NCBI GenBank assembly: GCA_022842905.1
Contig: JALHOS010000035.1
Coordinates: 1 to 32,839, forward strand
Length of the DNA stretch: 32,839 nt
DNA from: Myxococcaceae bacterium
GTDB taxonomy: Bacteria > Myxococcota > Myxococcia > Myxococcales > Myxococcaceae
Direction of reading: 5' to 3'
Shown here one piece after another: positions 10,454 through 32,839 of this stretch (positions are counted from its first letter, which is position 1; the number at the start of each line of letters is the position of its first letter). A program made the translations under genes and the position numbers. The notes beneath the pieces were generated by a model, which worked only from the letters and a program-made list of their open reading frames with translations, ran no database searches and had not been told where the DNA came from.

Positions 10454-11871
10454 TAGAAGAACACTCCCAGCTCGAGGCCGACGAAGGTGCGGGTATCGAC
10501 GAGGCTGGCGACCTCGTTGGCGGCGACGAGCCGAGACACTCGGACCCCGGCTCGCCCAAAGAACACGGACACTGGCTTGAGCTCGGCCCACAGCTCGCCA
10601 GAAAGGCTGAAGCCGGGGGTCAGGCCCGGCGCGCTCAACAGAAAGCGCGGCCCCACGCTGCCTTCGAGCGCGAGCTTTCCGGGGACGATCGGCTGGCGCA
10701 CCCGGAGCTGCGCGTCGATGCCGCGCAAGCTCGTCGACGGGAGCGGCAGGCTGCACGCGAAGACGGTGCTCTCCTGCGAGAAGCCACCGCCCACGCCGAT
10801 CCACGGCGCGTGGGGCTTGGGGGCGACCTGAAATCGGTACGTGCCGCGCACCATGAGGTCGTCGTCCGTCATCTGGCAGACGGTGCCGACGCCGGGGCCT
10901 TCGGTCACCTTCGCCTGGACGATCGCCCGGCGGTAATGCACGTCGACCTGCAGGTCGCCGAAGCGGCTCTTCGCGGTCTTGTCGAACCACTGAAACGGCT
11001 GGAGGTTGGCGTACACGGCGAGGCCCGTCGTGGGCGTGTTCCGGAGCTCCGCGAGGCGGCCCGCGTTGTCACCTCCGACCTCGAGGCCACGAAAGGTGAC
11101 GCCCGGACCGACGGCGATCGCGACGCGCGTGCGGTCGGGGTCCGCCTTGAACGCCTTGCGCTCGGCTTCGGCCCTGCGCTTGAGCCGCGCGGCTTCATCG
11201 GGGTCGACGAAGTCGTCGGCCTTCGTTTCGGGCGGTGGCGGCGTCTTGGGCAGCTCGGCGAGGCGCGCGGCTTCCGCGGCGGCGTTCGCCTTGGCCCGCG
11301 CGTCGGCGACGGCGATGAGCTGCTTGGCGACGAAGCCCGCCACGTCGTCGGCGTTCTTCTGGGAAATGGCGGCGGCGTTCGTCACGTAGCTGGGCTCACC
11401 GGCCTGGTTGCCCTGCGCGTCGTAGAGCGTGCCCACCAGCGCCCCCGTTCGGTTGAATTCGAACGTGACGAGCCACGCGACGTTGGTCGCCTGCGCGAGC
11501 TTCTCGCGCCCAGCTTGGGTGCGCAGCGTCGCCGGCGTCGCCCCAGCCTTGGCGACGGCGCCGAAGGCCGCCTCGGCGGGGATCACCTTGCCTTCGAGCT
11601 CTTTGGAGAACGCCGCGACCAGTCGCTGGTGCGCCGCCGCGTCGAACTTCTCGACGGTCTTGGCGGTGTTGAGGCCGGCGAAGGCTCCGCCCTGCTTCGT
11701 CGTCACCTTGACGATCGGCGGCACCACCAGCAGCGACTGCACGGCCGAGGTCTCGGACAGGTCGAGCCCCGTCGAGGCCACGCCCGCATCGGCGGCGCTC
11801 GGGCCGGCAGCGACCACGGAGGACAGCAGCGCAGTGGACAGCAGCGCAGTGCACAGCAGCGAACGAATCAC
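10453..11871 (-). CDS. predicted secreted/outer-membrane beta-barrel protein, function unknown
   Basis: This protein has 472 residues if started at GTG 11871. That start has a GAGGGAG Shine-Dalgarno about 6 bases upstream and is followed at once by a signal peptide (MIRSLLCTALLSTALLSSVVAAG). The longer frame upstream lacks such features. Residues about 35-185 form an uncharacterised periplasmic domain (segments LLVVPPIVKVTTKQGG and WLVTFEFNRTGALVGTLYD). A charged Ala/Glu/Lys helix with a Pro-rich break (about 190-245) follows. From about 248 to the end, alternating amphipathic strands finish in GVFF, the aromatic C-terminus typical of outer-membrane barrels. The stop overlaps the start of the giant repeat gene (TAATG), so the two are probably translated together and may act together at the cell surface. 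I do not recognise a named family. Confidence 0.7.
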   Translation of the reverse strand: MIRSLLCTALLSTALLSSVVAAGPSAADAGVASTGLDLSETSAVQSLLVVPPIVKVTTKQGGAFAGLNTAKTVEKFDAAAHQRLVAAFSKELEGKVIPAEAAFGAVAKAGATPATLRTQAGREKLAQATNVAWLVTFEFNRTGALVGTLYDAQGNQAGEPSYVTNAAAISQKNADDVAGFVAKQLIAVADARAKANAAAEAARLAELPKTPPPPETKADDFVDPDEAARLKRRAEAERKAFKADPDRTRVAIAVGPGVTFRGLEVGGDNAGRLAELRNTPTTGLAVYANLQPFQWFDKTAKSRFGDLQVDVHYRRAIVQAKVTEGPGVGTVCQMTDDDLMVRGTYRFQVAPKPHAPWIGVGGGFSQESTVFACSLPLPSTSLRGIDAQLRVRQPIVPGKLALEGSVGPRFLLSAPGLTPGFSLSGELWAELKPVSVFFGRAGVRVSRLVAANEVASLVDTRTFVGLELGVFF

Positions 11872-14089: not shown

Positions 14090-14596
14090 ATGTCGGAGCC
14101 CCACGCGTCATCGGAAGCGCTCTTCACCGCGTCGGAACAGCAGCAGTTCGACAAGGGAATCGCGGAGCTGCTGAGCCACTACCCACCGGACCGCAAGAGC
14201 GCGGCCATGCTGCCGGCGCTGCGCCTGCTGCAGACGCTCAAGGGCTGGCTGCCGCCCGAGGGCATGAAGCAGGTCGCGCAGAAGCTGCACACGACGGTCG
14301 AGAAGGCCTACGAGGTCGCGACCTTCTACGTGATGTTCCACACCTCGCCGCCCGGCAAGTACACGATCGACGTGTGCACGAACCTGTCCTGCGCGCTGCG
14401 CGGCGCCGAGGGGCTGCTCAGCTACCTCGAGGAGAAGCTCGGGCTGCGCGCCGGCACCAAGAACGAGCGCTACTTCCTGCGCGAGACCGAGTGCTTGGCC
14501 AGCTGTGGGACGGCGCCCTGCTTCCAGGTCAATGAGGACCACCACGAGAACCTGACCAAGGCCAAGGTCGACCAGATCCTGGAGAAGCTGGCATGA
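14090..14596 (+). CDS. nuoE: NADH-quinone oxidoreductase subunit E (24 kDa, 2Fe-2S)
   Basis: This is a 168-residue peripheral-arm subunit of respiratory complex I carrying the N1a [2Fe-2S] cluster. The thioredoxin-like fold shows the cluster ligands Cys96-x4-Cys101 (VCTNLSC) and Cys135-x3-Cys139 (ECLASC). The helical N-terminal half (LLSHYPPDRKSAAMLPALRLLQ) and the EVATFYVMF segment are family hallmarks. The ATG at 14090 is chosen over an in-frame ATG 102 bases upstream, because the added residues are not conserved and would cover the candidate promoter. It is the first gene of the nuo cluster here and overlaps nuoF by 4 bases. Confidence 0.94.
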   Translation: MSEPHASSEALFTASEQQQFDKGIAELLSHYPPDRKSAAMLPALRLLQTLKGWLPPEGMKQVAQKLHTTVEKAYEVATFYVMFHTSPPGKYTIDVCTNLSCALRGAEGLLSYLEEKLGLRAGTKNERYFLRETECLASCGTAPCFQVNEDHHENLTKAKVDQILEKLA

Positions 14597-15930
14597 GCGT
14601 GCTGACCGAGAAGGTGATGATGCGCGACTGGGCGCGGGCCGGCCAGAACACGCTGAGCGTGTACAAGCAGCACGGCGGCTACGCGCAGGCGAAGAAGGCG
14701 CTCGAGCTCAGCCCGCCCCAGATCATCGACGAAGTGAAGAAGTCGCAGCTGCGCGGCCGCGGCGGCGCCGGGTTCCCGACGGGCCTGAAGTGGAGCTTCG
14801 TGCCGTCGATCGACAAGAACCCCAAGCCTCGCTACCTGGCGATCAACGCCGACGAATCGGAGCCGGGCACCGCGAAGGACCGCTTCATTCTCGAGAACGA
14901 TCCGCACCTGCTGCTCGAAGGCATCGCGATCGCCTGCTACGCGCTCAACGCGCACACCTGCTACATCTACTCCCGCGGCGAGTTCAAATACCCGTCGAGC
15001 GTGCTCGACAAGGCGATCGCCGACGCGTACGCCGACGGCATCTTCGGCAAGAAGCTGCTCGGCAAGGACTTCGAGCTGAACGTCTACCAGGTGCGCGGCG
15101 CTGGCGCGTACATCTGCGGGGAAGAGACGGCGCTGCTCGAGTCCCTCGAAGGCAAGAAGGGCTGGCCCCGCCTCAAGCCGCCCTTCCCCGCCGTGGTCGG
15201 CCTCTTCGGCTGCCCGACGGTGGTGAACAACGTGGAGACGATCGCCGCGCTGCCCCGCATCTTCGAAAAGGGCGCGCAGTGGTTCAGCGACCTGGGCCTG
15301 GGCAAGTCGGGTGGCACGCGCCTGGTCACGTTGTCCGGCACGGTGAACCAGCCGGGCACGTACGAAGTGGCGATGAACACCACCATGAAGGAGCTCATCT
15401 TCGAGAAGGAATACGGGAACGGGCTCCCCGAAGGCCGCAGCGTGAAGGCCGTCATTCCCGGTGGCAGCTCGGCGCCGGTGCTGACCGCCGACGAGCTCGA
15501 CGTGAAGCTCGAGTTCGACGCCTTCAAGCCGCTGCAGTCCATGGCCGGGTCCGGCGGCATCATCGTCATGGACGACACCACCTGCATGGTGCGCTGCCTG
15601 TGGCGCGTGGCGCGGTTCTACGCCGAAGAGAGCTGCGGCCAGTGCACGCCCTGCCGCGAAGGCCAGCCGTGGATGACGCGGCTGTTGCGCAAGATCGAAG
15701 AAGGGCGAGGCACCGAAGAGGACCTCGAGACCCTGACGAACGTCGCGCAGGCGATCGCCCCGTGGCCGCCGATCGGCCTGGGCAACACGATCTGCGCGCT
15801 GGGCGACGCTGGCGCCTTGCCGGTGCAGAGCTTCGTGCAGAAGTTCAAGAAGGACTTCCTGGACCACATCAGCCTCAAGCGCTGCCCGTACGGCGACAAG
15901 CCGTGGGGCGCCCTCGGAGAGTTCCGGTGA
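14593..15930 (+). CDS. nuoF: NADH-quinone oxidoreductase subunit F (51 kDa, FMN/NADH, 4Fe-4S)
   Basis: This is a 445-residue subunit that oxidises NADH at FMN and passes electrons to cluster N3. The glycine-rich nucleotide motif RGRGGAGFPTGLKW (about 54-67), AINADESEPGTAKDR and ICGEETALLES (about 174-184) are the expected FMN/NADH elements. Cluster ligands are Cys348, Cys351 and Cys354 (CGQCTPC) plus Cys401 (TICALGD). The last spacing is about six residues longer than in the Thermus protein because of a PPIGLGN segment. The start overlaps nuoE (ATGA), and nuoJ begins inside its stop (GTGA). In many bacteria nuoG, nuoH and nuoI come between nuoF and nuoJ. Here they do not. Confidence 0.96.
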   Translation: MSVLTEKVMMRDWARAGQNTLSVYKQHGGYAQAKKALELSPPQIIDEVKKSQLRGRGGAGFPTGLKWSFVPSIDKNPKPRYLAINADESEPGTAKDRFILENDPHLLLEGIAIACYALNAHTCYIYSRGEFKYPSSVLDKAIADAYADGIFGKKLLGKDFELNVYQVRGAGAYICGEETALLESLEGKKGWPRLKPPFPAVVGLFGCPTVVNNVETIAALPRIFEKGAQWFSDLGLGKSGGTRLVTLSGTVNQPGTYEVAMNTTMKELIFEKEYGNGLPEGRSVKAVIPGGSSAPVLTADELDVKLEFDAFKPLQSMAGSGGIIVMDDTTCMVRCLWRVARFYAEESCGQCTPCREGQPWMTRLLRKIEEGRGTEEDLETLTNVAQAIAPWPPIGLGNTICALGDAGALPVQSFVQKFKKDFLDHISLKRCPYGDKPWGALGEFR

Positions 15931-16439
15931 GCATCGAGCAAGTCCTCTTCTACGTGTTCGCGGTGGCGATCGTCGCCTCGGCGTCGGCGGTCGTCTTCCT
16001 TCGCAACCCCGTGGGCAGCGCGATGTCGCTGGTCGCCTGCTTCTTCTTCTTGGCCGGGGTGTACGTGCTGCTCTGGGCGCACACGATCGCCGCGCTGCAG
16101 GTGCTCGTCTACGCCGGCGCCATCATGGTGCTCTTCCTCTTCGTCATCATGCTGCTGTCGCTGACGGACACGGGGCCGTTGGTGCAGCTGACCCCGTCCC
16201 GCGCGGCCGGTGCGCTCGCGGCGGTGGCGGTGTTCTCGGCGCTCATCGTCGCGCTCAAGAAGCTGCCGGACGTCGCGCCGGGGTGGACCGCGGACCCCAG
16301 CCAGGTCGCGCGCTTCGGGACGATTCAGTACCTGGGCGAAGTGCTCTACACGAAGTGGCTCTTCCCGTTCGAAGCGGTGTCGCTGCTGCTGCTGGTGGCG
16401 ATCGTGGGCGCGGTGGTGGTGGCCAAGCCGCGCATCTGA
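15927..16439 (+). CDS. nuoJ: NADH-quinone oxidoreductase subunit J
   Basis: This is a 170-residue integral membrane subunit of the complex I membrane arm. Five hydrophobic helices are evident. The third contains the conserved VLVYAGAIMVLFLFVIMLL stretch that forms the pi-bulge helix near the quinone/proton path. The start is GTG 15927, overlapping the nuoF stop. The frame is open far upstream, but that part lies antiphase inside nuoF and is not coding. The last helix ends in AVVVAKPRI, as in other NuoJ proteins. A 55-base gap separates it from nuoK. Confidence 0.93.
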   Translation: MSIEQVLFYVFAVAIVASASAVVFLRNPVGSAMSLVACFFFLAGVYVLLWAHTIAALQVLVYAGAIMVLFLFVIMLLSLTDTGPLVQLTPSRAAGALAAVAVFSALIVALKKLPDVAPGWTADPSQVARFGTIQYLGEVLYTKWLFPFEAVSLLLLVAIVGAVVVAKPRI

Positions 16440-16494
16440 CGGCGGCCGCCGGTTCTCATTTGAAAAAGCGACGCGACAAGGAAGCGAGAAGGCC

Positions 16495-16797
16495 GTGATC
16501 CCCACTTCACACTCGTTGATTCTGGCGGCGGCGCTGTTCGCGATCGGCATGCTCGGCGTGCTGGTGCGGCGCAACGCGCTGGTGGCGTTCATGTGCGTGG
16601 AGCTCATGCTCAACGCCGCGAACCTCACGTTCCTCGCGTTCGCCCGCGAGCGCGGCGACGTGACCGGCCACCTGTCTGCCTTCTTCATCATCGCGGTCGC
16701 GGCGGCGGAAGCGGCGGTGGGCCTGGCGATCGTCATCGCGGTCTTCCGCGCGCGCGGCACGGTCAACATCGAAGAAATCCAGAGCATGAAGCACTGA
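16495..16797 (+). CDS. nuoK: NADH-quinone oxidoreductase subunit K
   Basis: This 100-residue protein has three transmembrane helices, exactly the usual NuoK length. It keeps the functionally important membrane glutamates: one in FMCVELMLNAANL (helix 2) and one in AAAEAAVGLAIVIA (helix 3). The start is GTG 16495, preceded by a purine-rich AAGGAAGCGAGAAGG region serving as ribosome binding site. The C-terminus (NIEEIQSMKH) is typical. It is followed after 24 bases by nuoL. Confidence 0.94.
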   Translation: MIPTSHSLILAAALFAIGMLGVLVRRNALVAFMCVELMLNAANLTFLAFARERGDVTGHLSAFFIIAVAAAEAAVGLAIVIAVFRARGTVNIEEIQSMKH

Positions 16798-16821
16798 CGC
16801 GCCTTTGGGGCCCCAACGCTT

Positions 16822-18996
<2,175 letters not shown>

Positions 18997-19014
18997 AGCG
19001 AGCGAACCAAAGCC

Positions 19015-20796
19015 ATGAACGAGCTCTACGAGTCCCGCATTCTGAACCTGGTCATCTGGTCGCCGATGCTGTTCGCGCTCCTGGTGGCCTTCCTGCCCAA
19101 GGGTGAAAAAGGGCAGATCCGCACCGCCACCTTCGTCGGCATGCTCGTCAACCTCTGGGCCTGCGCCTGGGCGTGGTCGCGCTTCGAGCTGCACAACGCC
19201 GACGAGTTCCAGCTCGAGTACCGCATGCGGTGGATCGACGCGGCGGGCATCAGCTACCACGTGGGGGTCGACGGGCTGGCGATCGCCCTGGTGCTGCTGA
19301 CCGGCGTGCTGGCGCCGCTGGTGGTGCTCGCGTCGTGGACCTACGTCGACGAGCGCGTGAAGGAGTTCCACATCGCCCTGCTGGTGCTGCAGACGGCCAT
19401 GCTCGGCGCGCTGTGCAGCGTGGACACCCTGCTCTTCTACGTCTTCTTCGAGGCCATGCTGATCCCCATGTACCTGCTGATCGGCGTGTGGGGCGCCGAA
19501 GAGCGGCAAATGGCCGCGATGAAGTTCTTCCTCTACACGTTGGTCGGCTCGCTGCTCATGTTGGTGGCCTTGCTGGGCGTGTACTTCATCGCCGCGCCGG
19601 CCGGGCAGCGGAGCTTCGACTACGCCACGCTCTACAACGGGCTCATGGCCGCCAACCGCGAGCTGAGCGCGTGCCTGGCGAACAACCCGACCGGCCCGTG
19701 TGAAGGGCTGAGCGGCCCGGCGCAGGCGCTGTTCACCTGGGGCCCGTGGATGTTCCTGGCCTTCAGCCTGGCCTTCGCGATCAAGGTGCCCATGTGGCCG
19801 GTGCACACCTGGTTGCCCGACGCGCACGTGCAGGCGCCGGTGGCCGGGTCGATGGTGCTGGCCGGCGTGATGCTGAAGATGGGCACGTTCGGGTTCTGGC
19901 GCTTCGCGATCCCCCTCTTCCCGACGGCGGCGCGGCAGTACCAACACCTGCTCGCGCTCCTGGCCGTCATCGGCATCGTCTACGGCGCGTTCATGTGTCT
20001 GGCGCAGCGGGACATCAAGAAGCTCATCGCCTACTCGTCGGTCTCGCACCTGGGCTACTGCATGCTGGGCATGCTGGCTTTCACGGCGGAAGGCGCCACC
20101 GGCAGCGCGTACCAAATGCTGAACCACGGCGTGTCCACGGGCGCGCTCTTCATGCTCTTCGGCTTCCTGTACGAGCGGCGGCACGCGCGGCTCATGAGCG
20201 ACTACGGCGGGATCGCCAAGGTGATGCCGGTCTTCACGGCGTTCTTCGTGATCGTCACGTTCTCGAGCATCGCCGTGCCGGGGACGAACGGCTTCGTCGG
20301 TGAGTTCCTGGTGCTGCTGGGCAGCTTCAAGTCGAACCTGCCCCTGGCCTACTCGGTGGCGGCCACCACCTGCGTGGTGTTCGGCGCGGCGTACATGTTG
20401 TGGATGGTGCAGAAGGTCTTCTTCGGCAAGCTGGTGCACCAGGACAACCTGGGGCTGTCGGACCTCAACCGCCGCGAGACGCTGGCGGCGCTGCCCTTCA
20501 TCGCCCTCATCGTGCTCATGGGGCTCAAGCCCCAGCCGATTCTCGACGTGCTCGAGACGTCGACGACGCGCTACCTGGCCCGCGCCGGGTACGGCACGCC
20601 GGACAGCAACGACGACGCGGTGCGCGTCAAGGTGCAGCCGCTGCCCCGCCCTGCCCTCGTCGAGCTGGCCCCTGGAGCGCCGGTTGGGCTCGAGCCCGTC
20701 GGCCAGGTGGCCAACGCCCAGCCGCAACCCCGCATCCTGCGACCGCGTACGCCGGTGCCGTCGGCGGTCCAACCCATCCACCCGGTGATGCCGTGA
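19015..20796 (+). CDS. nuoM: NADH-quinone oxidoreductase subunit M, antiporter-like
   Basis: This is a 593-residue proton-pumping membrane subunit. Diagnostic segments are FYVFFEAMLIPMYLLIGVWG (with the conserved Glu), WLPDAHVQAPVAGSMVLAG, KKLIAYSSVSHLGYCMLG and GEFLVLLGSF. A loop with AGQRSFDYATLYNG and Cys-containing ANNPTGPCEG is inserted between helices. After the last helix, about 75 residues of Pro/Arg-rich tail (from about TTRYLARAGYG to PVMP) extend beyond typical homologues. They are of unknown role and probably disordered. The stop overlaps the nuoN GTG start. Confidence 0.95.
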   Translation: MNELYESRILNLVIWSPMLFALLVAFLPKGEKGQIRTATFVGMLVNLWACAWAWSRFELHNADEFQLEYRMRWIDAAGISYHVGVDGLAIALVLLTGVLAPLVVLASWTYVDERVKEFHIALLVLQTAMLGALCSVDTLLFYVFFEAMLIPMYLLIGVWGAEERQMAAMKFFLYTLVGSLLMLVALLGVYFIAAPAGQRSFDYATLYNGLMAANRELSACLANNPTGPCEGLSGPAQALFTWGPWMFLAFSLAFAIKVPMWPVHTWLPDAHVQAPVAGSMVLAGVMLKMGTFGFWRFAIPLFPTAARQYQHLLALLAVIGIVYGAFMCLAQRDIKKLIAYSSVSHLGYCMLGMLAFTAEGATGSAYQMLNHGVSTGALFMLFGFLYERRHARLMSDYGGIAKVMPVFTAFFVIVTFSSIAVPGTNGFVGEFLVLLGSFKSNLPLAYSVAATTCVVFGAAYMLWMVQKVFFGKLVHQDNLGLSDLNRRETLAALPFIALIVLMGLKPQPILDVLETSTTRYLARAGYGTPDSNDDAVRVKVQPLPRPALVELAPGAPVGLEPVGQVANAQPQPRILRPRTPVPSAVQPIHPVMP

Positions 20797-22349
20797 ACAC
20801 GCCTACCTTCACGATGAACGACTTCCTGCCGCTGATTCCGGCGGCCACGCTCGTGGTGGGGGCGATCGTCCTCATGCTCAGCGAGGTGTTCCTCGCCAGC
20901 GCGAACCGCGGCTACATGGTGATCGTCGCGACGCTGACGAGCGTCGTCGCGGCGGTGGCGGCGTTCTGGAACGCGTTCGAGCCGGCGCGCAGCGTGCTGC
21001 AGGGCTACGCAGTGCTCGACCCCTTCAGCAGCTTCATGACGTGCATGGTCTGCGTGGGCACGGCGCTCTCGGGCCTGGTGGCGTCGAGCTTCCTCAAGCA
21101 CCGCAACGCCGAGCGCGGGGAATTCTACGCGCTGGTGCTCTTCGCCGCGGCGGGCATGAGCCTGCTCGCGCTGTCCAACGAGTTCATCACCATCTTCATC
21201 AACCTCGAGGTGCTGTCGGTGGCGACGTACTCGCTGACCGCGTACCTGCGGCGCGGCGGGCGCCCGGCTGAAGCCGGCTTCAAGTACTTCATCTTGGGCG
21301 CGTTCTCGGCGTCGCTGCTGCTCTACGGCGCGGCGCTGCTGTACGGGGCGACCGGCGTGACGAAGCTCGACGAGCTCGAGCGCGCGCTGCCGCTGGCCGC
21401 CGCCACCCAGCCCGCGTTGGTCTACGTGGGCTTTGGGCTGGTACTGGCAGGCTTCGCGTTCAAGGTCGCGGCGGTGCCGTTCCACATGTGGACGCCAGAC
21501 GTCTACGAAGGTGCGCCCACGCCGGTGACGGCGCTGATGAGCGCGGGCGTGAAGTCGGCGGCCTTCGTGTCGCTGGTGCGCGTGTTCCTGGCCATGAAGG
21601 GCGCGCTGCCTCCCGAAGTGCCCTACCTGCTGTTCGCCGCGCTGGCGCTGGTCACCATGGTGGCGGGCAACCTGCTGGCCATGCCGCAGCGGAACGTGAA
21701 GCGCATGCTGGCGTACTCGTCGATCGCCCACGCGGGCTACCTGCTGCTCGGCGTCGCGGCCCTGTTCGCCCCGGCGGGCGCGTCGGCCAAGGCCGGCGTG
21801 CTGGCGGTCACCCCGCTGCTCGGCGGCACGGCGGTGGCGGCGGGTGACGTCTACAAGGGCCTGCTCTTCTACCTGCTGGGCTACACGGTGACGACGGTGG
21901 GCGCCTTCGGCTGCGTGGCGGCGATCGAGCGGCGCGAAGACGAGACGCGCACCAACACCTGGGACCTGGAGCGGTTCGCGGGCCTCGCGCAGCGCCAGCC
22001 TGGCTGGGCGGTGGCCATGGCGGCGTTCATGTTGTCGCTGGCGGGCGTGCCTCCGACGGCGGGCTTCATCGGCAAGCTGTTCGTCTTCTCGGCGGCGGTG
22101 GACGCCGGCCTCATCGGCCTGGCGGTGGCGGGCGTGCTCGCGAGCGTAGCGGGCACCTACTATTACCTGCGCGTCGTCGTTTACATGTTCATGCGGCCGT
22201 CGCCCGACGAGGCCACCGCGCCGTTCCGTCACTGGACCATGGACGTCGCGCTGGTCACCTCGGCCGTCGCGGTGGTGGCCTTGGGCCTGCTGCCCGGCCC
22301 GGTGGCCCAGTGGCTGTCCCGCGCGGGGATGATGTTCGGCCACTTCTAA
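20793..22349 (+). CDS. nuoN: NADH-quinone oxidoreductase subunit N, antiporter-like
   Basis: This is a 518-residue antiporter-like membrane subunit of complex I. Recognisable segments are NLEVLSVATYSLTAYLRR, FHMWTPDVYEGAPTPVTAL, VKRMLAYSSIAHAGYLLLG and LAGVPPTAGFIGKLFVF. The start is taken as GTG 20793 in a GTGA overlap with nuoM. An ATG at 20814 is the alternative and would remove seven residues (start VNTPTFT). It is the last nuo gene of the cluster. A 78-base gap with short inverted repeats follows. Confidence 0.95.
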   Translation: MNTPTFTMNDFLPLIPAATLVVGAIVLMLSEVFLASANRGYMVIVATLTSVVAAVAAFWNAFEPARSVLQGYAVLDPFSSFMTCMVCVGTALSGLVASSFLKHRNAERGEFYALVLFAAAGMSLLALSNEFITIFINLEVLSVATYSLTAYLRRGGRPAEAGFKYFILGAFSASLLLYGAALLYGATGVTKLDELERALPLAAATQPALVYVGFGLVLAGFAFKVAAVPFHMWTPDVYEGAPTPVTALMSAGVKSAAFVSLVRVFLAMKGALPPEVPYLLFAALALVTMVAGNLLAMPQRNVKRMLAYSSIAHAGYLLLGVAALFAPAGASAKAGVLAVTPLLGGTAVAAGDVYKGLLFYLLGYTVTTVGAFGCVAAIERREDETRTNTWDLERFAGLAQRQPGWAVAMAAFMLSLAGVPPTAGFIGKLFVFSAAVDAGLIGLAVAGVLASVAGTYYYLRVVVYMFMRPSPDEATAPFRHWTMDVALVTSAVAVVALGLLPGPVAQWLSRAGMMFGHF

Positions 22350-22400: not shown

Positions 22401-22427
22401 CCCGTTCGTGGTTTGCCCCGGCCCCCC

Positions 22428-23783
22428 ATGCGCCCTGCTCTGCTCCCGACCCTCGCGCTGGCCTTCGTGGCCTGCGGCTCCCCTCTGGCGAAGGACTTGT
22501 TTGGTGACGGGCTGAAGGCCGAGACCACGCTCGCGCCGGATCCGGCCGTCACCTACGAGCGCGACGTGCGGCCGATCATGGAGGCTTCCTGCACGGCCTG
22601 CCACGCGTCGGGCGGCATCGCTCCGTTCCAGCTGACGACGTACGACGAAGTCTTCGCCATGCGCAGCGCGGTGAAGTCGGCCGTGGAAGCGCGGCGCATG
22701 CCGCCGTACCTGGCCGGCCCCGGCTGCAACACCTACGCGGCGGATCCCCGCCTGAGCGACGCGCAGATCGCCACCATCAGCCAGTGGGTGGGGCTGGGCG
22801 CGCCCAAGGGACGGTCGGTGGGCGACGCGGGGACGCCCATGGCCCGCATCGCCAGCCTGCCGCGGGTCGATCACCGCCTGGCCGCGCCGGCCGCGTACAC
22901 GCCGCTGCAGGCGCCCGACGACTACCACTGCTTCGTCATGGACTGGCCGGCGACGACCGACTCATTCGTCACGGGCTTCCACGTCACGCCGGGCAACGAG
23001 CGCGTGGTGCACCACGTCATCGCGTACATCGTCGGGCCGGGTGACGTGACGCGGGTGCGGCAGCTCGACGACGCCGAGCCGGGGCCCGGGTACACCTGCT
23101 TCGGGGGCTCCGGCATCAACGGGAATCAGAACTGGCTGGGATCGTGGGCGCCCGGCGGCTCGGCGGTCATGTACCCCGACGGCACCGGGCTGCTCGTGCG
23201 CGCTGGGTCGAAGATCGTCATGCAGGTCCACTACAACACCAACGCCGCGCCCGAAGGGCAGCGCGCCGATCTGACGACGCTGCAAGTTGCGACCGCCGCG
23301 TCGGTGGCCAAGCGCGCGTACCTCATGCCCTGGACGAACCCGACCTGGCTGTCGGGGAACATGCCGATCCCCGCTGGGGCCGCGGCCGCGACCCACGCGT
23401 TCCAGCGCGATCCGACGAGCGTGCTGGGCTTCATCACCCAGCAGCAGATTCCGTCCGGCGCGTTCCGCCTGCACGCGGCGTCGCTCCACGAGCACCTGCT
23501 GGGCAAGAAGGGGCGCGTGGAGATCGTCCGCGCCGGCGGCGCGCCAGCCACCTGTCTGCTGGACGTGCCCCGCTGGGACTTCCACTGGCAGCGCAGCTAC
23601 CGGCTGGCGACCCCGGTCGTCTTCAACCCCGGCGATCAGCTCAAAGTGTCGTGTGAGTGGGACAACAGCCCAGCGAACCAGCCGGTGGTGAACGGCGCGC
23701 AGCAGGCGCCTCGCGACGTCAACTGGGGCGAAGGCACCGGCGACGAGATGTGTCTGGGCGTGGTCTACATCTCCGAGCTGTAG
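22428..23783 (+). CDS. lipoprotein: cytochrome c domain plus copper type II (PHM-like) monooxygenase domain
   Basis: This is a 451-residue exported lipoprotein. The ATG at 22428 gives a short signal peptide ending in the lipobox FVAC, with Gly-Ser next, which supports this start over an upstream TTG. An N-terminal c-type haem site, Cys55-x2-Cys58-His59 (CTACH), lies in a domain with RRMPPYLAG, typical of haem-binding pre-domains. The rest matches the C-terminal copper type II ascorbate-dependent monooxygenase fold. All six copper ligands expected from peptidylglycine monooxygenase can be proposed: His195-His196 (VVHHVI) with His268 (QVHYN), and His354-x-His356 (LHEHLLG) with Met441 (DEMC). 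A linked electron-transfer/oxygenase role is plausible. The substrate is unknown. It is not part of the nuo operon in any obvious functional sense. Confidence 0.87.
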   Translation: MRPALLPTLALAFVACGSPLAKDLFGDGLKAETTLAPDPAVTYERDVRPIMEASCTACHASGGIAPFQLTTYDEVFAMRSAVKSAVEARRMPPYLAGPGCNTYAADPRLSDAQIATISQWVGLGAPKGRSVGDAGTPMARIASLPRVDHRLAAPAAYTPLQAPDDYHCFVMDWPATTDSFVTGFHVTPGNERVVHHVIAYIVGPGDVTRVRQLDDAEPGPGYTCFGGSGINGNQNWLGSWAPGGSAVMYPDGTGLLVRAGSKIVMQVHYNTNAAPEGQRADLTTLQVATAASVAKRAYLMPWTNPTWLSGNMPIPAGAAAATHAFQRDPTSVLGFITQQQIPSGAFRLHAASLHEHLLGKKGRVEIVRAGGAPATCLLDVPRWDFHWQRSYRLATPVVFNPGDQLKVSCEWDNSPANQPVVNGAQQAPRDVNWGEGTGDEMCLGVVYISEL

Positions 23784-25906: not shown

Positions 25907-26020
25907 CCGAACGCAGCACGCCCAGCCACAGCGCCCCATCGGGCACGCGGCGTCGCTCGCTCCGCTCCAGCTGCAACTTTCCTGGTCTTCCGGCGCTGGC
26001 ACGCGGCCAATGCGCGCGGC

Positions 26021-26026
26021 TATAGG
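26021..26026 (+). promoter_or_regulatory. possible -10 element upstream of the giant lipoprotein
   Basis: TATAGG lies 37 bases before the GTG at 26064, in a 157-base gap after the histidine kinase gene. No good -35 is visible. A Shine-Dalgarno-like AAGGGG (about 26053-26058) lies before the GTG. Confidence 0.3.
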
Positions 26027-26063
26027 GTTCACGCTGCCAGGTCGAACGAAGAAGGGGTCTACC

Positions 26064-29000
26064 GTGTCTCAACGTCATCCGTCTCGCACGTCCATTGCTG
26101 GGGTCGCCTGGCTGTGTCTGGTGGCGTCCGCCTGCTTCGACCTGAACGTGCCACCGGCGCCGCAAGCTGGCGGCGTCACCGGCCGGGTCGACACCCAAGG
26201 GAAGATCTCCCCCGCAAGCCTCGACGTGACGCTCGTGGACGACAGCAGCCAGCGCCGCACGGTGAAGACCGGCAGCGACGGCACGTTCCGCTTCGAGGAC
26301 CTCAAGCCACAGCTGTACGCGCTCGAGCTCAAGGCGCCCGGCTTCGCGCCGCTGGTGGTTCCTTCGGTGCGCGTGCGCTCCGGTCAGCCGACGGACGTGG
26401 GCGTGCTCGAGCCAGTGTGGTTGCAAGGCACGGCCGCCGCCGCGAGGGTGTTCGGGAAGGTCACCGCCATGAGCAACGGCGAGGTGACGGGCGCGACGGT
26501 GGAGTTCCGGCTCCAGCCCGCGGGCGATCTGGTGGCCACGTCCGTCGTCGGGTTCGACGGCGCGTTCGAGACGAGACTGCCGCCCGGCACGTACGATCTG
26601 CGCGCCCAGCACCCGCACTACGTCGCCGCGGAGCTCCGTGACGTCGTCGTCCAGGAAGGCCTGGCGAAAGATCTGACCGCGACGCCGCTGCTGCTGGCGA
26701 TCAACCCGGCGACGGTCAGCGGCCTCGTCTTCACCCGCCGGGAGCTGATGGAGACGGTGCCCGCGAGCGGGGCGAACGTCACCGTGCAGTCCGGCAGCGC
26801 CAGCACCACCACCGACATGAGCGGGCGGTACACCGTGACTGGCCTCGCCGCGGGTGAGGTCGAGCTCCGCGTGTCGACGCCCGGCTACGCGCCGGCGAGC
26901 GTGCGGGTGACCTTGCGGCCTGGCCAGACGACCATGGCCCCGGACGTCACGCTGGACCTGCTGCGCGGCTCCATCACCGGGACCGTCGAGCTGAGCGATC
27001 GCCAGCCGGTGGACGGCACGACGGTCACCGTGCAGCCGTACGGCTACTCGGCCGTGGTGTCCGCGGGCGCTGCTGAGCCGTTCCGAGGCACCTTCGTCAT
27101 TCCGGCGGTGCCGTACCGCGACTACGTGCTGACGGCCTTCAAGCAGCGCTACCTGCGGGCGACGGCCAACGTCACCGTCAACGCTCAGACCGTCTCCGCC
27201 GGCAACCTGGTGCTGGCGCCACAGACCGGAGACTTCGTCATCGACGACGGCGACGCCAGCAACACGCCGGGCTTCGCCAAGTCGACGGGCGTCACGCTGC
27301 GCTTCACGACGCCCGGCGCCGCCCCCGCCGCGTACCGCGCCAGCGAGGCTTCCAACTTCGTCAACGTCGACGGAGGCACGGCAGCCTTCGTGCCCTACAC
27401 CAGCGACACGCAGCCCTTCACGCTCTCGTCCGCTGACGGGAACAAGACGGTCTTCGTGCAGATGCGGGACACCATGATGGTGGAGGGCCCGGTGCTGACC
27501 GCGTCGATCACCCTCGACACCACGCCGCCGTCGGCGCCCGCCGTGCAGCTCCCTGCGACCGGCAGCAACGGCAGCACCCGCTTCAGCAACCAGCCGGGCA
27601 ACACGCTCACCGTGCAAGTCACCGCGACGGATCTCAACGGCGTCATTGGCCTGCGACTGGCGTCCGCTCCGCCCGACGGCGGAACGACACTGCCGGGTCC
27701 CACGCGGGCCTACGTGCCGACGTCCAGCTTCGACCGCCCGGCGGTGACGTTGCCCGACGGCGGGGTGCAGCTCGCCGGCGACGGGCCGCAGCAAGTCTGC
27801 GCGCAGGTGTTCGACAACGCGGGCAACGCGAGCGCGGTGGGGTGCGACACCATCGTGGTGGACCGCGGCGTGCCCAGCGGCAGCGTCACGGTGCTGCGAG
27901 GCCCCAAGGCGACGGCGGACGGCGTCACTAACCAGGTGCTGGTGGACCTGCAGACGACGAGCGCGACGGAGCCCCACGGCGGCGCCGTCTTCGTGCGCCT
28001 GGCGAACAGCAACACCGACTTGGGCAACGCGGTGCTGACGCCGCTGCGGCCGCGCATGGCCTGGTTCCTGGACTCGGTGGGTGAAGGCCTCAAGTCGGTG
28101 CACTACCAGCTGGTGGACGCGGCGGGGAACGCGGCGCCGGCGACGAGCGCCACCATCACCTACGACGTCACCGCGCCGACGGGCGTGGGGCTTTCGGTGC
28201 CGTCGGCCTCGCGCAGCAACACGGTTTCGGTGGGCCTCACCATTCCCGGGACGGTGACGGACTTGTCGACGGTGGACGGCGTGACGGTGTCCGAAAGCCA
28301 GGCCTTCACGGCGGCCGGCACGGTGGGCCCGCAGGGCCCCGGCACCAACCCCGTCATGCTGACGCTGTCGAGCGGCGACGGGCCGAAGGTGGTGTACGGG
28401 CGCTTCCGAGACAGGGCGGGCAACGAGACCATCACCTCCGCCAACGTCACCGTGGACAGCACCCCGCCCACCGGCACCTTCGTGCTGACGGGCACGCTGG
28501 CAGACGGCACGCCGTCGGCCACCCTCAGCACCACGACGGCGGTGACGGCGGAGTCCCGCGTCAGCGGCGCCACCGAGTACCTCTTCATGGACAGCTCTTC
28601 GGGCAGCTGCCCGTCGACGGGTTACCAGCCCCTGCCTCCCAGCGGGCTGCTGTCGCTGACGTTGCCCGGAGGCGCGGCGCCCGGCGCCAAGGAAGTGCGC
28701 GGCTGCTTCCGCGACGCGGCGGGCAACGTGCTGGGAAGTTTGGTGGGCAGCACCTGGGCGCCGCGCGGCGTCCTCACGCTGGACAGCAGCGCGCCGACGG
28801 GCTGCACGTTGGCGCTGGCGGGCAGCCTGCGCGACGGCGGCGTGGCGACGGGCGGCGTGACGGCGAGTGCGGGGCTGACGGTGACGACGACGGGCTGCGC
28901 CGAGGTGCCGGTGGAGATGGCGCTGGTGACGGGCCCCGCGTCGTGCACGACGACGGCGCCGCTGGACTGGAAGCCCTACGCGCCCAGCACCAGCTTCTCG

Positions 29001-32000
29001 CTGCCGGGCTTGGACGGCCTCACCGTCGTCGACGGGTGCTTCCGCGACGCGGCCCGAAACGTGGGCGCCGCGGCCAACCTGCCCAAGGCCAGCATCACCC
29101 TGGACACGACGCCGCCCATCGACGCGACGCTGGTGCTGGCCAACACCAACGGCTTCACGCGCAGCCTGACGGTGCAGGCGACGCCGACGGCGCTTGGGGC
29201 CACCGAGTACGCGCTGGCGCAGGCGTCGAGTGGGCCCTTCACCTTCGCGCCGTACCCGCCGGCGACGACGCCGACGGTGGCCTTCACCGGGGCCGACGGC
29301 CCGCGCACGGTGTACGCGGCGTTTCGCGACGCGGTAGGCAACACCAGCGCGGTGGTGTCGGCGAGCGTGACGGTGGACAGCACGCCCCCGACGGCGCCGG
29401 TGCTGTCGCTGGAGGCAGCCGGCACGGTGGGCAGCACCAAGTACACCAAGCAGGCTTCGGCGCTGCCCTTCACGCTGACGTCGTCCGACGCCACCAGCGG
29501 GCTGGCCTTCATGAAGCTGTCGGCCAGCAACACGCTGCTGGCCGACGGCGGCCTGCCCAGCCCCGTCGTCTTCGCGTACGCGCAGTCCGGCAGCTTCACG
29601 CGGCCCACGACGGCAGACGGCCCGCAGCCCGTCTACGTGCAGGTGCTGGACAACGCCGGCAACGTCAGCGCGGTGGGCACGGACAGCGTCGTCGTCGACA
29701 CCCTTGCGCCCACCGGTACCCTCAGCCTGCCCCGAGGCCCCCGCGCCACCGTCAACGGCTTCACCAACCAGGCGCTCGTCGACGTGCTGCTGGCCAGCAC
29801 CTACGACGGCGGCGTCGACGTGAATGGCAGCGTGGTGACGGTGAAGCTGGCCAACTCGTCTGGCGCGGAGCTGGACGGCGCGCAGTACCAGGCCGTGCGG
29901 CCCAGCACGCCGTGGTTTCTGTCCGCGGGTGAAGGCCTCAAGACGGTGTACGCGCAGCTCAAGGACACCGCGGGCAACGTGTCGTCGCCCTTCTCCGCTA
30001 CCATCACCTACGACGTGACGGCGCCGGGTGGGCTGGCCGTGTCCATTCTCGAAGGCAGCGCGGTGCGGGCCCCCGCCGTCACGGTGCAGACGGCGACGTC
30101 GGCGACGGACTTGTCGCCCACGCAGGGCGTGACGCTGGGTGAAGAGACGAGCTTCAGCGCGCCCACCACCGTCGGCCCCATGGCGCGGCCGGGCACGGGG
30201 CAGGTGCCGTACACGTTGAGTGCGGGAGACGACCGGAAGACAGTCTTCGTGCGCTTCCGCGACGGCGCGGGCAATGACTCGGTCGCCAGCGTCAACGTCA
30301 CGCTCGACACGCAGGCGCCGACGGGCAGCTTCACCGTCGAGGGCGCGCTGGCGGACGGAACGCCGTCGTCGAGCCTCACCTTCACCACGAGCGTCACGGT
30401 GCGCTTCAACGTCCAGGACGCGACGGAGTACGTGCTGGGCAACGAGACGCTCACCACCTGCCCGACGTCTGGCTACACCGCGCTGCCGACGAGCGCCCAG
30501 GTAGCAACGACGCTGTCCGGCGCGGCGACACCCCGTCGGGTGCGCGCGTGCTTCCGCGATGGCGCGGGCAACGCGCTGGGGCCGCTGGAGCAGAGCATCT
30601 CCCTCGACTCGAGCGCGCCGACGGGCTGTGCGTTGACGCTCACTGGGCGGAAGAAGGACAGCACCGTCGCGCCGGCGGGCCGCACCGCCCTCACCACCAT
30701 CACCGTCGCCGTCAGCGGCTGTGGTGAGACGCCGAGCCAGATTGCGCTGGTGAATGGCGCCGTCAGCTGTAGCCAAGCGCAGGCCTGGCAGTCCTACTCG
30801 ACGCCGCTGTCCTTCACGCTGTCTGGCACAGAGGGCCTCAGCACCGTCAGCGGCTGCGTGCGGGACTCGGCGCGGAACGTCGGCACGACGGCGACGGCCA
30901 ACATCACGCTCGATACGACGCCGCCGGACGGCGTCGACCTGACGCTCCAAAACACCAACGGCTACGCGCAGCAGCTGACCGTCAACCTCACCGGGACGGC
31001 GAGCGGCGCGACGGAATGGGCCTACAGCACGCTCAATGGGTCCGGCCCGTGGTCATTTGAAGCCTTCCCTCCGGGCGTCCAGCGCAGCGTCACCTTCACC
31101 GGCGGTGACGGCACGAAGAAGGCGTGGGCCGTCTTCCGCGACGACGTCGGCAACCAGAGCATCGTCGCGAGCGCGGCCGTCATCGTCGACACGGTGTCGC
31201 CTCCGGCTCCGCGGCTGTTGTCGGTCGAGACCACCAACCGCTCCGCCCACCTCTTCTGGGACGTCGTCACCGACACCAACGGCATCGCCCGGTACGAGCT
31301 GTGGTGCGGCGTGACGAGCCCGAGCACGCTGTGCGCCACGGCGCCCGGCACGAGCCCCGACGGCTGGGTGCGCAACCTGGCCAACAAGCGCGACCAGGCC
31401 TTCGCGGTGCGCGCGGTGGACAACGCAGGCCGTCAGTCCCCGTTCAGCGCGACGTTGTCCGGCAGCATCGGCTGGAAGCGCATCGCCGTGCCGGTGCTCT
31501 CGCCGTACGCGGTCCGCCCGCTCGACATCGCCACGCAGGGCAACGACATCTACGTGACGTACATGGAGACCGATGCCGAGTGGACCGTCGCGACGGGCAC
31601 GCTGAAGGTCGCCGTGTCGAACGATCGAGGCCAGTCCTGGCGCTCGGTCACGCTGGACCCCGCGTTCGGCTGGGACCGGCAGTTCGGCCACATCGGCTTC
31701 AGCGACTCGGCCGTCGTCGTCGCCACCATCGGCTCGGACCAGAACGCCAATGACGTCTTTGCGGGGACGGCCTGGGCAGACCGGGGCCAGGTGCGCATCT
31801 GGTCGTCGCAGGACAACGGCGCGACGTGGGTCGACCAGTCGACCTTCACCTTCCCGTCGACGACCTATTGGGCGAAGACGAGCGGCCTGGGGCTGTGGAC
31901 CAGCGGAAACTCGGTGGGCGTGACGTACCTGTCCGGCAACGACAGCGCGACGAACACGCTCTACCTCGGGCGCTCGACGTCCGGCGCGACGTCGAGCTTC

Positions 32001-32839
32001 TCGCTCTTCACCCACAACAACACTGCCTTCGGGGCGACTTACGCCAACGTCTCTGGCCTGCGGTCCTGCGCGGGGAACTTCGCCACGACGCACGTCTGGA
32101 AAGAGAGCAACGGCCTGCGCAGCCTGACCGGTCACTTCCTGAACGACACCTTCGTCGACACGGGAATCTCCGAAGGCACCGTGCAGATCATCTTGAGCGG
32201 AAGCGGGGTGGGCAACGAGGCGCTGCACTTCGACCTGGCGTGTACGTCAGTGCCGGAGGCGATGCAGGCCTACGTCCTCTACGGAGGCACGGGTAGCGCG
32301 GGGCCCACCAACCTGTACCTGCGCCGCAAGCTCGGGACGACCTCGGGCTTCAACTGGAGCAGCGCCGCGCTCCTGCGGACGGACAACGCGCTTTCCGTGC
32401 CGCCGCGCATCTACGCAGGCGGCCGCAACGTCTACGTCCTCTACAAGAACACCGCCAATGAGCTGATGCTGGGCGAGTCCACCGACGAAGGCGCCACGTT
32501 CCTGTCCAACGCGTGGACGAAGCTCGAGACGGGCGACCTGCGCGGCCGCTTCCCGGTCATGAGCGGCGAAGGGTCGACGGACATCGCCCTGGCCTTCACG
32601 GACTCGACGGGCAGCACGCTGACGGCCATGGTGCCCGCGCTGAGGTCCGTCAACGTGACCGCGGCGACTGGCGTCGGCGCCTCCACGGTCAACTGGGCGT
32701 CCGTCGGCGGCGTCAGCCGGTACCAGATCGACTCCGACGCTGGGAGTCTCGTCGACACCAACTTCACGTCGGTCTTCCAGTTCGACGTGCTGGGCTACAC
32801 GGACGGCGGCCGGGCGCAGGCGCACCAGGTGCGGGCGGT
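26064..32839 (+). CDS. giant multidomain surface lipoprotein, 3' end outside the window
   Basis: One frame is open from GTG 26064 to the last base: at least 2258 residues with no stop. I read it codon by codon. The start is supported by an AAGGGG site and a lipoprotein signal peptide ending in VASAC. Four carboxypeptidase-regulatory-like domains follow (about 38-110, 130-205, 216-300, 302-385; for example GVTGRV, VFGKVT, VSGLVF, SITGTV). Thirteen Ig-like units, each opened by a hinge such as ITLDTTPPSAP, run from about 482 to 1800. The first twelve are a duplicated six-unit block. Three Asp boxes (SNDRGQSW about 1852, SQDNGATW about 1915, STDEGATF about 2139) indicate a BNR-type beta-propeller region. 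An Fn3-like domain begins near 2190. Expected role: exported, surface-anchored adhesion or glycan-interacting protein. The substrate is unknown. Confidence 0.92.
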   Translation, partial: MSQRHPSRTSIAGVAWLCLVASACFDLNVPPAPQAGGVTGRVDTQGKISPASLDVTLVDDSSQRRTVKTGSDGTFRFEDLKPQLYALELKAPGFAPLVVPSVRVRSGQPTDVGVLEPVWLQGTAAAARVFGKVTAMSNGEVTGATVEFRLQPAGDLVATSVVGFDGAFETRLPPGTYDLRAQHPHYVAAELRDVVVQEGLAKDLTATPLLLAINPATVSGLVFTRRELMETVPASGANVTVQSGSASTTTDMSGRYTVTGLAAGEVELRVSTPGYAPASVRVTLRPGQTTMAPDVTLDLLRGSITGTVELSDRQPVDGTTVTVQPYGYSAVVSAGAAEPFRGTFVIPAVPYRDYVLTAFKQRYLRATANVTVNAQTVSAGNLVLAPQTGDFVIDDGDASNTPGFAKSTGVTLRFTTPGAAPAAYRASEASNFVNVDGGTAAFVPYTSDTQPFTLSSADGNKTVFVQMRDTMMVEGPVLTASITLDTTPPSAPAVQLPATGSNGSTRFSNQPGNTLTVQVTATDLNGVIGLRLASAPPDGGTTLPGPTRAYVPTSSFDRPAVTLPDGGVQLAGDGPQQVCAQVFDNAGNASAVGCDTIVVDRGVPSGSVTVLRGPKATADGVTNQVLVDLQTTSATEPHGGAVFVRLANSNTDLGNAVLTPLRPRMAWFLDSVGEGLKSVHYQLVDAAGNAAPATSATITYDVTAPTGVGLSVPSASRSNTVSVGLTIPGTVTDLSTVDGVTVSESQAFTAAGTVGPQGPGTNPVMLTLSSGDGPKVVYGRFRDRAGNETITSANVTVDSTPPTGTFVLTGTLADGTPSATLSTTTAVTAESRVSGATEYLFMDSSSGSCPSTGYQPLPPSGLLSLTLPGGAAPGAKEVRGCFRDAAGNVLGSLVGSTWAPRGVLTLDSSAPTGCTLALAGSLRDGGVATGGVTASAGLTVTTTGCAEVPVEMALVTGPASCTTTAPLDWKPYAPSTSFSLPGLDGLTVVDGCFRDAARNVGAAANLPKASITLDTTPPIDATLVLANTNGFTRSLTVQATPTALGATEYALAQASSGPFTFAPYPPATTPTVAFTGADGPRTVYAAFRDAVGNTSAVVSASVTVDSTPPTAPVLSLEAAGTVGSTKYTKQASALPFTLTSSDATSGLAFMKLSASNTLLADGGLPSPVVFAYAQSGSFTRPTTADGPQPVYVQVLDNAGNVSAVGTDSVVVDTLAPTGTLSLPRGPRATVNGFTNQALVDVLLASTYDGGVDVNGSVVTVKLANSSGAELDGAQYQAVRPSTPWFLSAGEGLKTVYAQLKDTAGNVSSPFSATITYDVTAPGGLAVSILEGSAVRAPAVTVQTATSATDLSPTQGVTLGEETSFSAPTTVGPMARPGTGQVPYTLSAGDDRKTVFVRFRDGAGNDSVASVNVTLDTQAPTGSFTVEGALADGTPSSSLTFTTSVTVRFNVQDATEYVLGNETLTTCPTSGYTALPTSAQVATTLSGAATPRRVRACFRDGAGNALGPLEQSISLDSSAPTGCALTLTGRKKDSTVAPAGRTALTTITVAVSGCGETPSQIALVNGAVSCSQAQAWQSYSTPLSFTLSGTEGLSTVSGCVRDSARNVGTTATANITLDTTPPDGVDLTLQNTNGYAQQLTVNLTGTASGATEWAYSTLNGSGPWSFEAFPPGVQRSVTFTGGDGTKKAWAVFRDDVGNQSIVASAAVIVDTVSPPAPRLLSVETTNRSAHLFWDVVTDTNGIARYELWCGVTSPSTLCATAPGTSPDGWVRNLANKRDQAFAVRAVDNAGRQSPFSATLSGSIGWKRIAVPVLSPYAVRPLDIATQGNDIYVTYMETDAEWTVATGTLKVAVSNDRGQSWRSVTLDPAFGWDRQFGHIGFSDSAVVVATIGSDQNANDVFAGTAWADRGQVRIWSSQDNGATWVDQSTFTFPSTTYWAKTSGLGLWTSGNSVGVTYLSGNDSATNTLYLGRSTSGATSSFSLFTHNNTAFGATYANVSGLRSCAGNFATTHVWKESNGLRSLTGHFLNDTFVDTGISEGTVQIILSGSGVGNEALHFDLACTSVPEAMQAYVLYGGTGSAGPTNLYLRRKLGTTSGFNWSSAALLRTDNALSVPPRIYAGGRNVYVLYKNTANELMLGESTDEGATFLSNAWTKLETGDLRGRFPVMSGEGSTDIALAFTDSTGSTLTAMVPALRSVNVTAATGVGASTVNWASVGGVSRYQIDSDAGSLVDTNFTSVFQFDVLGYTDGGRAQAHQVRA
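27511..31184 (+). repeat. duplicated block of six Ig-like domains
   Basis: Hinge motifs occur near 27511, 27858, 28161, 28452, 28779 and 29099, and again near 29372, 29693, 30009, 30303, 30603 and 30908. Unit 1 of the second set resembles unit 1 of the first, and so on: both unit-2 copies have LRGP/PRGP followed by TNQ.LVD, both unit-3 copies open with ITYDVTAP, both unit-4 copies have LADGTPS, both unit-5 copies open with LDSSAPTGC, and both unit-6 copies have NTNG. The period is about 1810-1860 bases (about 605-620 residues). Confidence 0.85.

Follow-up and report, generated by a model that had tools for sequence, protein, structure and literature searches.

A duplicated six-domain immunoglobulin-like stalk in a giant Myxococcaceae protein and the growth of its family in steps of three or six domains

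The stalk gene and its two six-domain blocks

The stretch analysed, called the window here, is the 32,839-nucleotide contig JALHOS010000035.1 (C35) of Myxococcaceae bacterium assembly GCA_022842905.1, which totals 7.85 Mb in 667 contigs. The host is a soil bacterium of predatory type. The window ends within a giant gene on its forward (+) strand, the stalk gene, which starts at position 26010 and whose frame is still open at the contig end. Its product carries an array of twelve immunoglobulin (Ig)-like units (U1 to U12, 27504-31175), preceded by a further unit (Z) that brings the number of consecutive Ig-like units to 13, and followed by a connector and a head (Table 1). Contig C445 of the same assembly overlaps the window end by about 145 bases (32695-32839) and adds about 418 residues; because the stalk gene continues into it, the protein is about 2,690 residues long. 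The overlap contains one mismatch, as expected where an assembly graph breaks at a strain variant.

The original prediction, made from the sequence letters alone, was that the twelve units are not equivalent and that unit n matches unit n+6. The conserved [I/V]xxDxxxP boundary was used to delimit the units, and all six pairs of U(n) with U(n+6) proved to be reciprocal best matches, with 47-53% identity and scores of 188-246 vs at most 112 for any other pair. Mean identity is 34.9%, 33.5%, 33.0%, 30.3% and 34.6% at lags 1 to 5, 48.9% at lag 6, and 34.0% and 36.0% at lags 7 and 8; over all lags other than 6 the means range from 27 to 37%, or from 30 to 36% where there are at least four pairs, and neighbours are thus not more alike than units six apart. 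With the order of the units shuffled, the lag-6 score was equalled in 23 of 200,000 trials, which is the rate of the sole perfect pairing, and in an independent lag permutation lag 6 had z=7.4, with none of 2000 shuffles as high. The signatures on which the prediction was based (ITYDVTAP, LDSSAPTGC, LADGTPS, NTNG, RGP..TNQ) were located in the expected units, and its period of about 610 residues, or block of about 1.85 kb, agrees with block lengths of 620 and 604 residues (blocks 1 and 2) and DNA repeat spacings of 1836, 1848 and 1824.

The product is probably an outer-membrane lipoprotein whose Ig-like stalk holds the head off the cell. Lipobox-like cysteine contexts, judged by eye, are VASA|C in the window and LLAGC, VFSGC, LMASC, AATGC and others in relatives, and Pfam family PF13620 (CarboxypepD_reg) matches four stretches of the N-terminal part (E=2.9e-30). 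The best match of Z among the array units is U6. The OmpL47-type model NF047446 scores 51.2 bits on the whole protein vs a curated cut-off of 40, with one stretch, in U7; on ten separate pieces (Z, U1-U3, U8-U12 and the C-terminal part) only U1 matched, at 15.8 bits, below the cut-off. The sole match in the head, to BNR (E=0.0064), is below the Pfam cut-off, and the head is related to those of G000_C74, G091_C17 and G000_C252 (related genes are designated by handles for genome and contig). An AF2 model of the C-terminal part alone, truncated by the contig end, had a predicted local distance difference test score (pLDDT) of 32.5 and was not used.

Table 1. Parts of the stalk gene within the window (HMM, hidden Markov model; Cys, cysteine)
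Feature	Position	Strand	Basis
N-terminal part: signal with lipobox-like VASA|C, and CarboxypepD_reg (prealbumin-like) domains	26010..27230	+	translation; Pfam; Cys context in 16 genes
Z, thirteenth, diverged Ig-like unit ahead of the array	27231..27503	+	Z HMM 106 bits, next type 23
U1, type A, block 1	27504..27848	+	boundary cut; HMM typing
U2, type B, block 1	27849..28151	+	boundary cut; HMM typing
U3, type C, block 1	28152..28442	+	boundary cut; HMM typing
U4, type D, block 1; 2 Cys	28443..28769	+	boundary cut; HMM typing; Cys count
U5, type E, block 1; 4 Cys	28770..29090	+	boundary cut; HMM typing; Cys count
U6, type F, block 1	29091..29363	+	boundary cut; HMM typing
U7, type A, block 2	29364..29684	+	boundary cut; HMM typing
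U8, type B, block 2	29685..29999	+	boundary cut; HMM typing
U9, type C, block 2	30000..30293	+	boundary cut; HMM typing
U10, type D, block 2	30294..30593	+	boundary cut; HMM typing
U11, type E, block 2	30594..30899	+	boundary cut; HMM typing
U12, type F, block 2	30900..31175	+	boundary cut; HMM typing
Post-stalk C-terminal part: connector of about 90 residues, then head with weak BNR/Asp-box signal	31176..32837	+	Pfam; relatives' heads

Domain types and growth by threes in related genes

The stalks of 16 homologous genes were typed by HMMs trained first on the window and then on the relatives. The best type has a margin of 25 bits or more over the next in all counted domains except the F of G091_C17, and the types follow a cysteine code: none in 70 of 70 Z, C and F domains, exactly two in 38 of 38 D and exactly four in 37 of 37 E. 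Nine of the 16 genes, including genes in other genera, consist of one ZABCDEF block (G000_C24, G000_C48, G015_C225, G015_C108, G018_C293, G025_C181, G144_C341, G144_C105, and G091_C17 with a weak F), and (ABCDEF)x2 occurs only in the window gene. The arrangement ZABC(DEF)n is found in G000_C74 (n=11), G000_C252 (n=5) and G089_C233 (at least three full copies before the contig end), and ZAB(CDE)nF in G018_C217 (n=2), G021_C132 (n=2) and G090_C54 (n=3). Most simply, the ancestral stalk would be the single block, the commoner state, and judging by these arrangements and the tree of blocks described below at least three lineages have lengthened it in different registers (ABCDEF, DEF and CDE). G000:C74 (locus L040) is a paralogue of 5553 residues in the window's genome with 37 typed Ig domains, Z-ABC-(DEF)x11; by eye, its head appears to have an extra run of WAVG-type repeats relative to the window head.

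In a tree of blocks, the two blocks of the window pair with each other (support 90/87), with G091_C17 next outward, separately from the DEF clade (100/99) and the CDE clade (95/94); by identity, too, they are each other's nearest (48% over 595 columns). As the window blocks are sisters, the block was duplicated after it had diversified, as predicted from the window and as is also indicated by single-block genes elsewhere, in which these six types occur in identical order. Tree and identities together show the duplication of a whole diversified block in the lineage of the window gene, followed by divergence to 49% identity. If the two-block stalk were instead a mosaic of two different genes, the longer branch of block 1 (0.67, vs 0.42 for block 2) would be accommodated, and exchange between paralogues does seem to happen, the heads and stalks of G018_C293 and G021_C132 having different closest relatives, from which head exchange is suggested; since the window blocks are mutually nearest by both measures, such a mosaic is very unlikely. 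Two kinds of head follow F in the family (loci L045, L047-L050 and others), one ending in LELE and one BNR-like (window, C74, C252 and G091_C17); the sole LELE-ending head scanned, that of L090, has an LVIVD match.

The further suggestion that recombination between the blocks could change stalk length was not borne out for the present day. DNA identity between the blocks is 60.0%, with 62% agreement at the third positions of conserved residues, and they share exact runs of at most 17 nt, vs 12-15 nt in 30 codon shuffles. Active length switching of the kind found in Periscope Proteins, with the blocks recombining to one- or three-block forms in a population, would fit the one-block relatives in other genera, but periscope arrays have long, highly identical repeats, and of the one- and three-block relatives sought only the former exist among the genomes searched, where the longer relatives gained DEF or CDE triplets and no three-block ABCDEF form was found; such switching by the window blocks is not supported and is barely credible. 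The DEF copies of C74 share 54-66% DNA identity with exact runs of at most 29 nt, and the CDE copies of G018_C217 have a common exact run of 39 nt; because periscope variation goes with high DNA identity, the stalk arrays are slow by that standard. In a relative from another class, at locus L101 (G152:C36:8500-20000), the three-domain units reach 94% identity; this expansion is recent, and strain-level variation in length could well be sought there.

Growth by threes was surveyed in 35 arrays of at least eight consecutive units (478 units), belonging to several families and classes across the phylum and picked by similarity to the window protein, not by periodicity; G091_C17 (seven units) and other short arrays were left out. 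When the maximum over lags was compared with 2000 shuffles, 17 arrays had a peak at p<0.05: two at lag 1, one at lag 2, 13 at lag 3 and one at lag 6. In ten arrays none of the 2000 shuffles was as high; nine of these peak at lag 3 and one, the window array, at lag 6. The closest relative among the 478 units lies in the same gene for 83 units, 76 of them at a multiple of three (chance 0.283), with 0, 0, 49, 1, 2 and 17 own-gene pairs at lags 1 to 6, and all 34 pairs of at least 60% identity are at a multiple of three. No adjacent pair reaches 50% identity among 163 in the 16 typed genes (mean 31.2%; extra weak units after F of G000_C24 omitted), and 6 of 443 do in the wider 35-array set. The new junctions F-D, E-C and F-A always preserve a three-position cycle {A,D}, {B,E}, {Z,C,F}. 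On these comparisons of units, new stalk length across the family is shown to have come almost exclusively in steps of three or six domains, in various registers, near domain borders and not as a copy beside itself.

Big_9 Ig arrays of the same phylum were the sole control; HYR (PF02494) and Big_6 (PF17936) gave 0 and 1 genomes at the set thresholds. Nine of 17 fetched Big_9 stretches had an array of at least eight units and were used (206 units), and the count at a multiple of three was 21 of 91, with 30% expected; the difference from the stalk family has a Fisher p of 2.8e-21, counted on non-independent units. Neighbours in Big_9 arrays have mean identities of 53-75%. The notion that whole-block growth was selected solely to keep identical domains apart and so prevent misfolding, three being incidental, agrees with the dissimilarity of adjacent stalk domains and with parts of PMC8201768 and PMC9704523 in which neighbours below 50% (or of 30-40%) identity are usual in large multidomain proteins. 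However, it would bar lag 1 alone, yet pairs at lags 2, 4 and 5 are nearly absent too, and the Big_9 arrays tolerate alike neighbours; it is a quite improbable explanation of the step.

The hexamer was also considered as an old doubled trimer and rejected: with family HMMs and profile-profile scores, types in the same phase were not more alike than others (76 and 78 of 210 label arrangements were as high). Older duplications of single domains are suggested by the closest pairs of types, which are D-E, C-F and A-B; A-D and B-E rank among the less similar pairs, leaving C-F as the sole pair three apart that is alike. Crossing-over within C/F or Z/F domains was likewise rejected, quarter-by-quarter scoring having found no hybrids at the new junctions. 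Single-block arrays have no significant lag-3 similarity, although they are short and of low power. Because they lack this signal and types three apart are unlike except C-F, older homology does not force a step of three. The alternative that recombination sets the step, by a chance first duplication of three and then misaligned, in-phase crossing-over that adds multiples, predicts the growth seen within the DEF and CDE arrays; the first and last DEF copies in C74 correspond by position to those in C252, whereas several of the copies in between differ, stretches of 46-47 nt are repeated at domain borders, and C and F are the most alike of non-neighbour types. Yet it leaves unexplained why the separate founding steps (ABCDEF, DEF, CDE, G055, G056, G152, G165 and G184) are all of three or six. 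Lag 3 is not significantly raised in single-block arrays, A-D and B-E are little alike, and Big_9 arrays, with far more alike neighbours, do not grow by threes. Recombination as the cause of the step deserves serious consideration but is on the whole unlikely.

A possible three-domain structural repeat

An AF2 model of block 2, from five aligned homologous rows, consists of all-beta domains (pLDDT 83.7, predicted template modelling score (pTM) 0.50). Its best fold matches in the PDB are long rods of Ig-like or beta domains: the top match is 9fls_A, a fragment of GhpA of Aureispira (VIA Z 11.6, root-mean-square deviation 5.8 over 315 residues), and other rods of Ig or fibronectin (Fn) domains have VIA Z of 9-11. 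As for kinship to GhpA in sequence, phmmer of the window protein gave 0 matches, and a profile of the block gave 18 matches, none of them GhpA.

The simplest remaining reason for the step would be a structural repeat of three. Three successive Ig domains may constitute one structural repeat of the rod, approximately one turn or one repeat of lateral contacts, and for that reason only insertions of 3n domains would leave the junction fit and the orientation of the head unaltered. Steps of whole blocks would also separate near-identical domains, limiting misfolding. At about 4 nm per domain, six added domains would extend the stalk by about 24 nm, and its function may be to make contact, at a fixed distance, with other cells or with surfaces. 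The overall reading, a duplicated ABCDEF lipoprotein stalk in a family whose growth by threes and sixes is set by a three-domain structural repeat, appears to us evenly poised between right and wrong. Somewhat more tentative is the proposal that the stalks are quantised, with a three-domain period (turn or lateral contact, perhaps in a multi-chain rope) and with selection accepting only 3n insertions, in any register, so that the window duplication would be two quanta. Unit Z, and six as two threes within a family that grows by threes, go beyond what was originally predicted.

Several observations weigh against the structural repeat of three and the history on which it is built. Seven of the 83 own-gene pairs are off register (G163_C16, G167_C89, G184_C27), and three arrays peak at lag 1 or 2 with p<0.05 (G025_C181, 0.043; G144_C341, 0.0185; G056_C227, 0.027), while two of the nine Big_9 control arrays peak at lag 3. 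Only about ten gene groups, each with main steps of three or six domains, are independent: the window, the DEF clade, the CDE clade, G055, G056_C615, G152_C36a, G163_C8, G163_C16+C40, G165_C218 and G184_C27. One of these, G163_C8, has a non-significant permutation peak at lag 1 (p=0.086) and three own-gene pairs, all at lag 6. The support of 90/87 for the window blocks as sisters is under the 95/80 mark. The pTM of 0.50 means that domain orientation in the block 2 model is uncertain, and the period of three is inferred, not read from the model. Finally, with nine window proteins as queries, tblastn produced no match at 1e-10 in eight flanking or homologous loci; because no conserved neighbours surround G091_C17 or the other relatives tested, orthology rests on the trees.

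Elsewhere in the window, a second giant repetitive gene (4205-10990, - strand; 2261 residues from the first start) encodes the Cu-binding_MopE 'putative metal-binding motif' in 22 stretches (E=5.7e-131), with a VWA domain close to the C-terminus. Complex I genes identified by Pfam (14593-22346, + strand; Nuo51-type and three Proton_antipo_M subunits) are followed by a copper type II monooxygenase-like gene (22413-23783); tblastn found no match to the complex I and monooxygenase-like genes near the stalk gene's relatives at the loci tested.

Comparison with known systems

The duplication in the window is, by itself, a good but ordinary instance of a known process. A literature search on segmental duplication and grouped growth in bacterial Ig stalks, outside which most subscription journals lay, found no paper on this stalk family; what seems to be new is a constant step within one bacterial stalk family, applied in different registers and set against a control from the same phylum. 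Five such genes, which range from 7 to 37 typed Ig domains, occur in one genome, so that one cell may display heads at several set heights. The top fold match, GhpA, is the grappling hook protein of Aureispira, which is predatory. Like the stalk, GhpA, going by the titles of its PDB entries, is a very large protein with extended rods of tandem beta domains; no PDB chain of GhpA matches the stalk in sequence, and a resemblance between Ig rods is by itself evidence of neither kinship nor function.

Portions of PMC8286594 describe fibrillar adhesins as long surface proteins with tandem stalk domains and a further terminal part, as in the window protein; they carry an adhesive domain, whereas the window protein has no recognised one, only the sub-threshold BNR match after the stalk. 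Periscope Proteins, as described in parts of PMC8201768 and PMC9704523, are likewise bacterial surface stalks in which the number of domains sets the reach of the distal domain. Their DNA repeats are long and highly identical, unlike those of the window stalk (60.0% identity between blocks; neighbours with a mean of 35% amino acid identity). Because the window repeats have diverged to 60% DNA identity, rapid switching is not expected; in contrast to periscope proteins, the stalk family, in which neighbours are unlike, changes length between genera and between paralogues, not by quick switching.

Expansion of domain repeats by several domains at once is a common mode in the part of Bjorklund, Ekman and Elofsson (2006; PMC1553488) consulted, with steps of seven in nebulin and six in one zinc-finger protein. 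As in the stalk family, domain similarity in those arrays peaks at one lag, and the window array fits a super-repeat in having its peak at one lag greater than 1 against shuffled order. The Ig repeats covered in that part mostly grow by one, perhaps two domains, while the stalk family grows by three or six throughout. Titin provides the closest parallel for a fixed block of ordered types: the available text of PMC7427331 gives Ig/Fn super-repeats of 11 domains in the C-zone or 7 in the D-zone, at about 4 nm per domain, with a structural period of about 44 nm to which the block length is matched. Titin differs in being eukaryotic and intracellular with mixed Ig and Fn domains, and in that its matching period is known whereas that of the stalk is inferred. 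Should a structural period quantise stalk length, the pitch of a bacterial surface rod could be read from its sequence alone, and the stalk family would be a bacterial counterpart to titin-like super-repeats.

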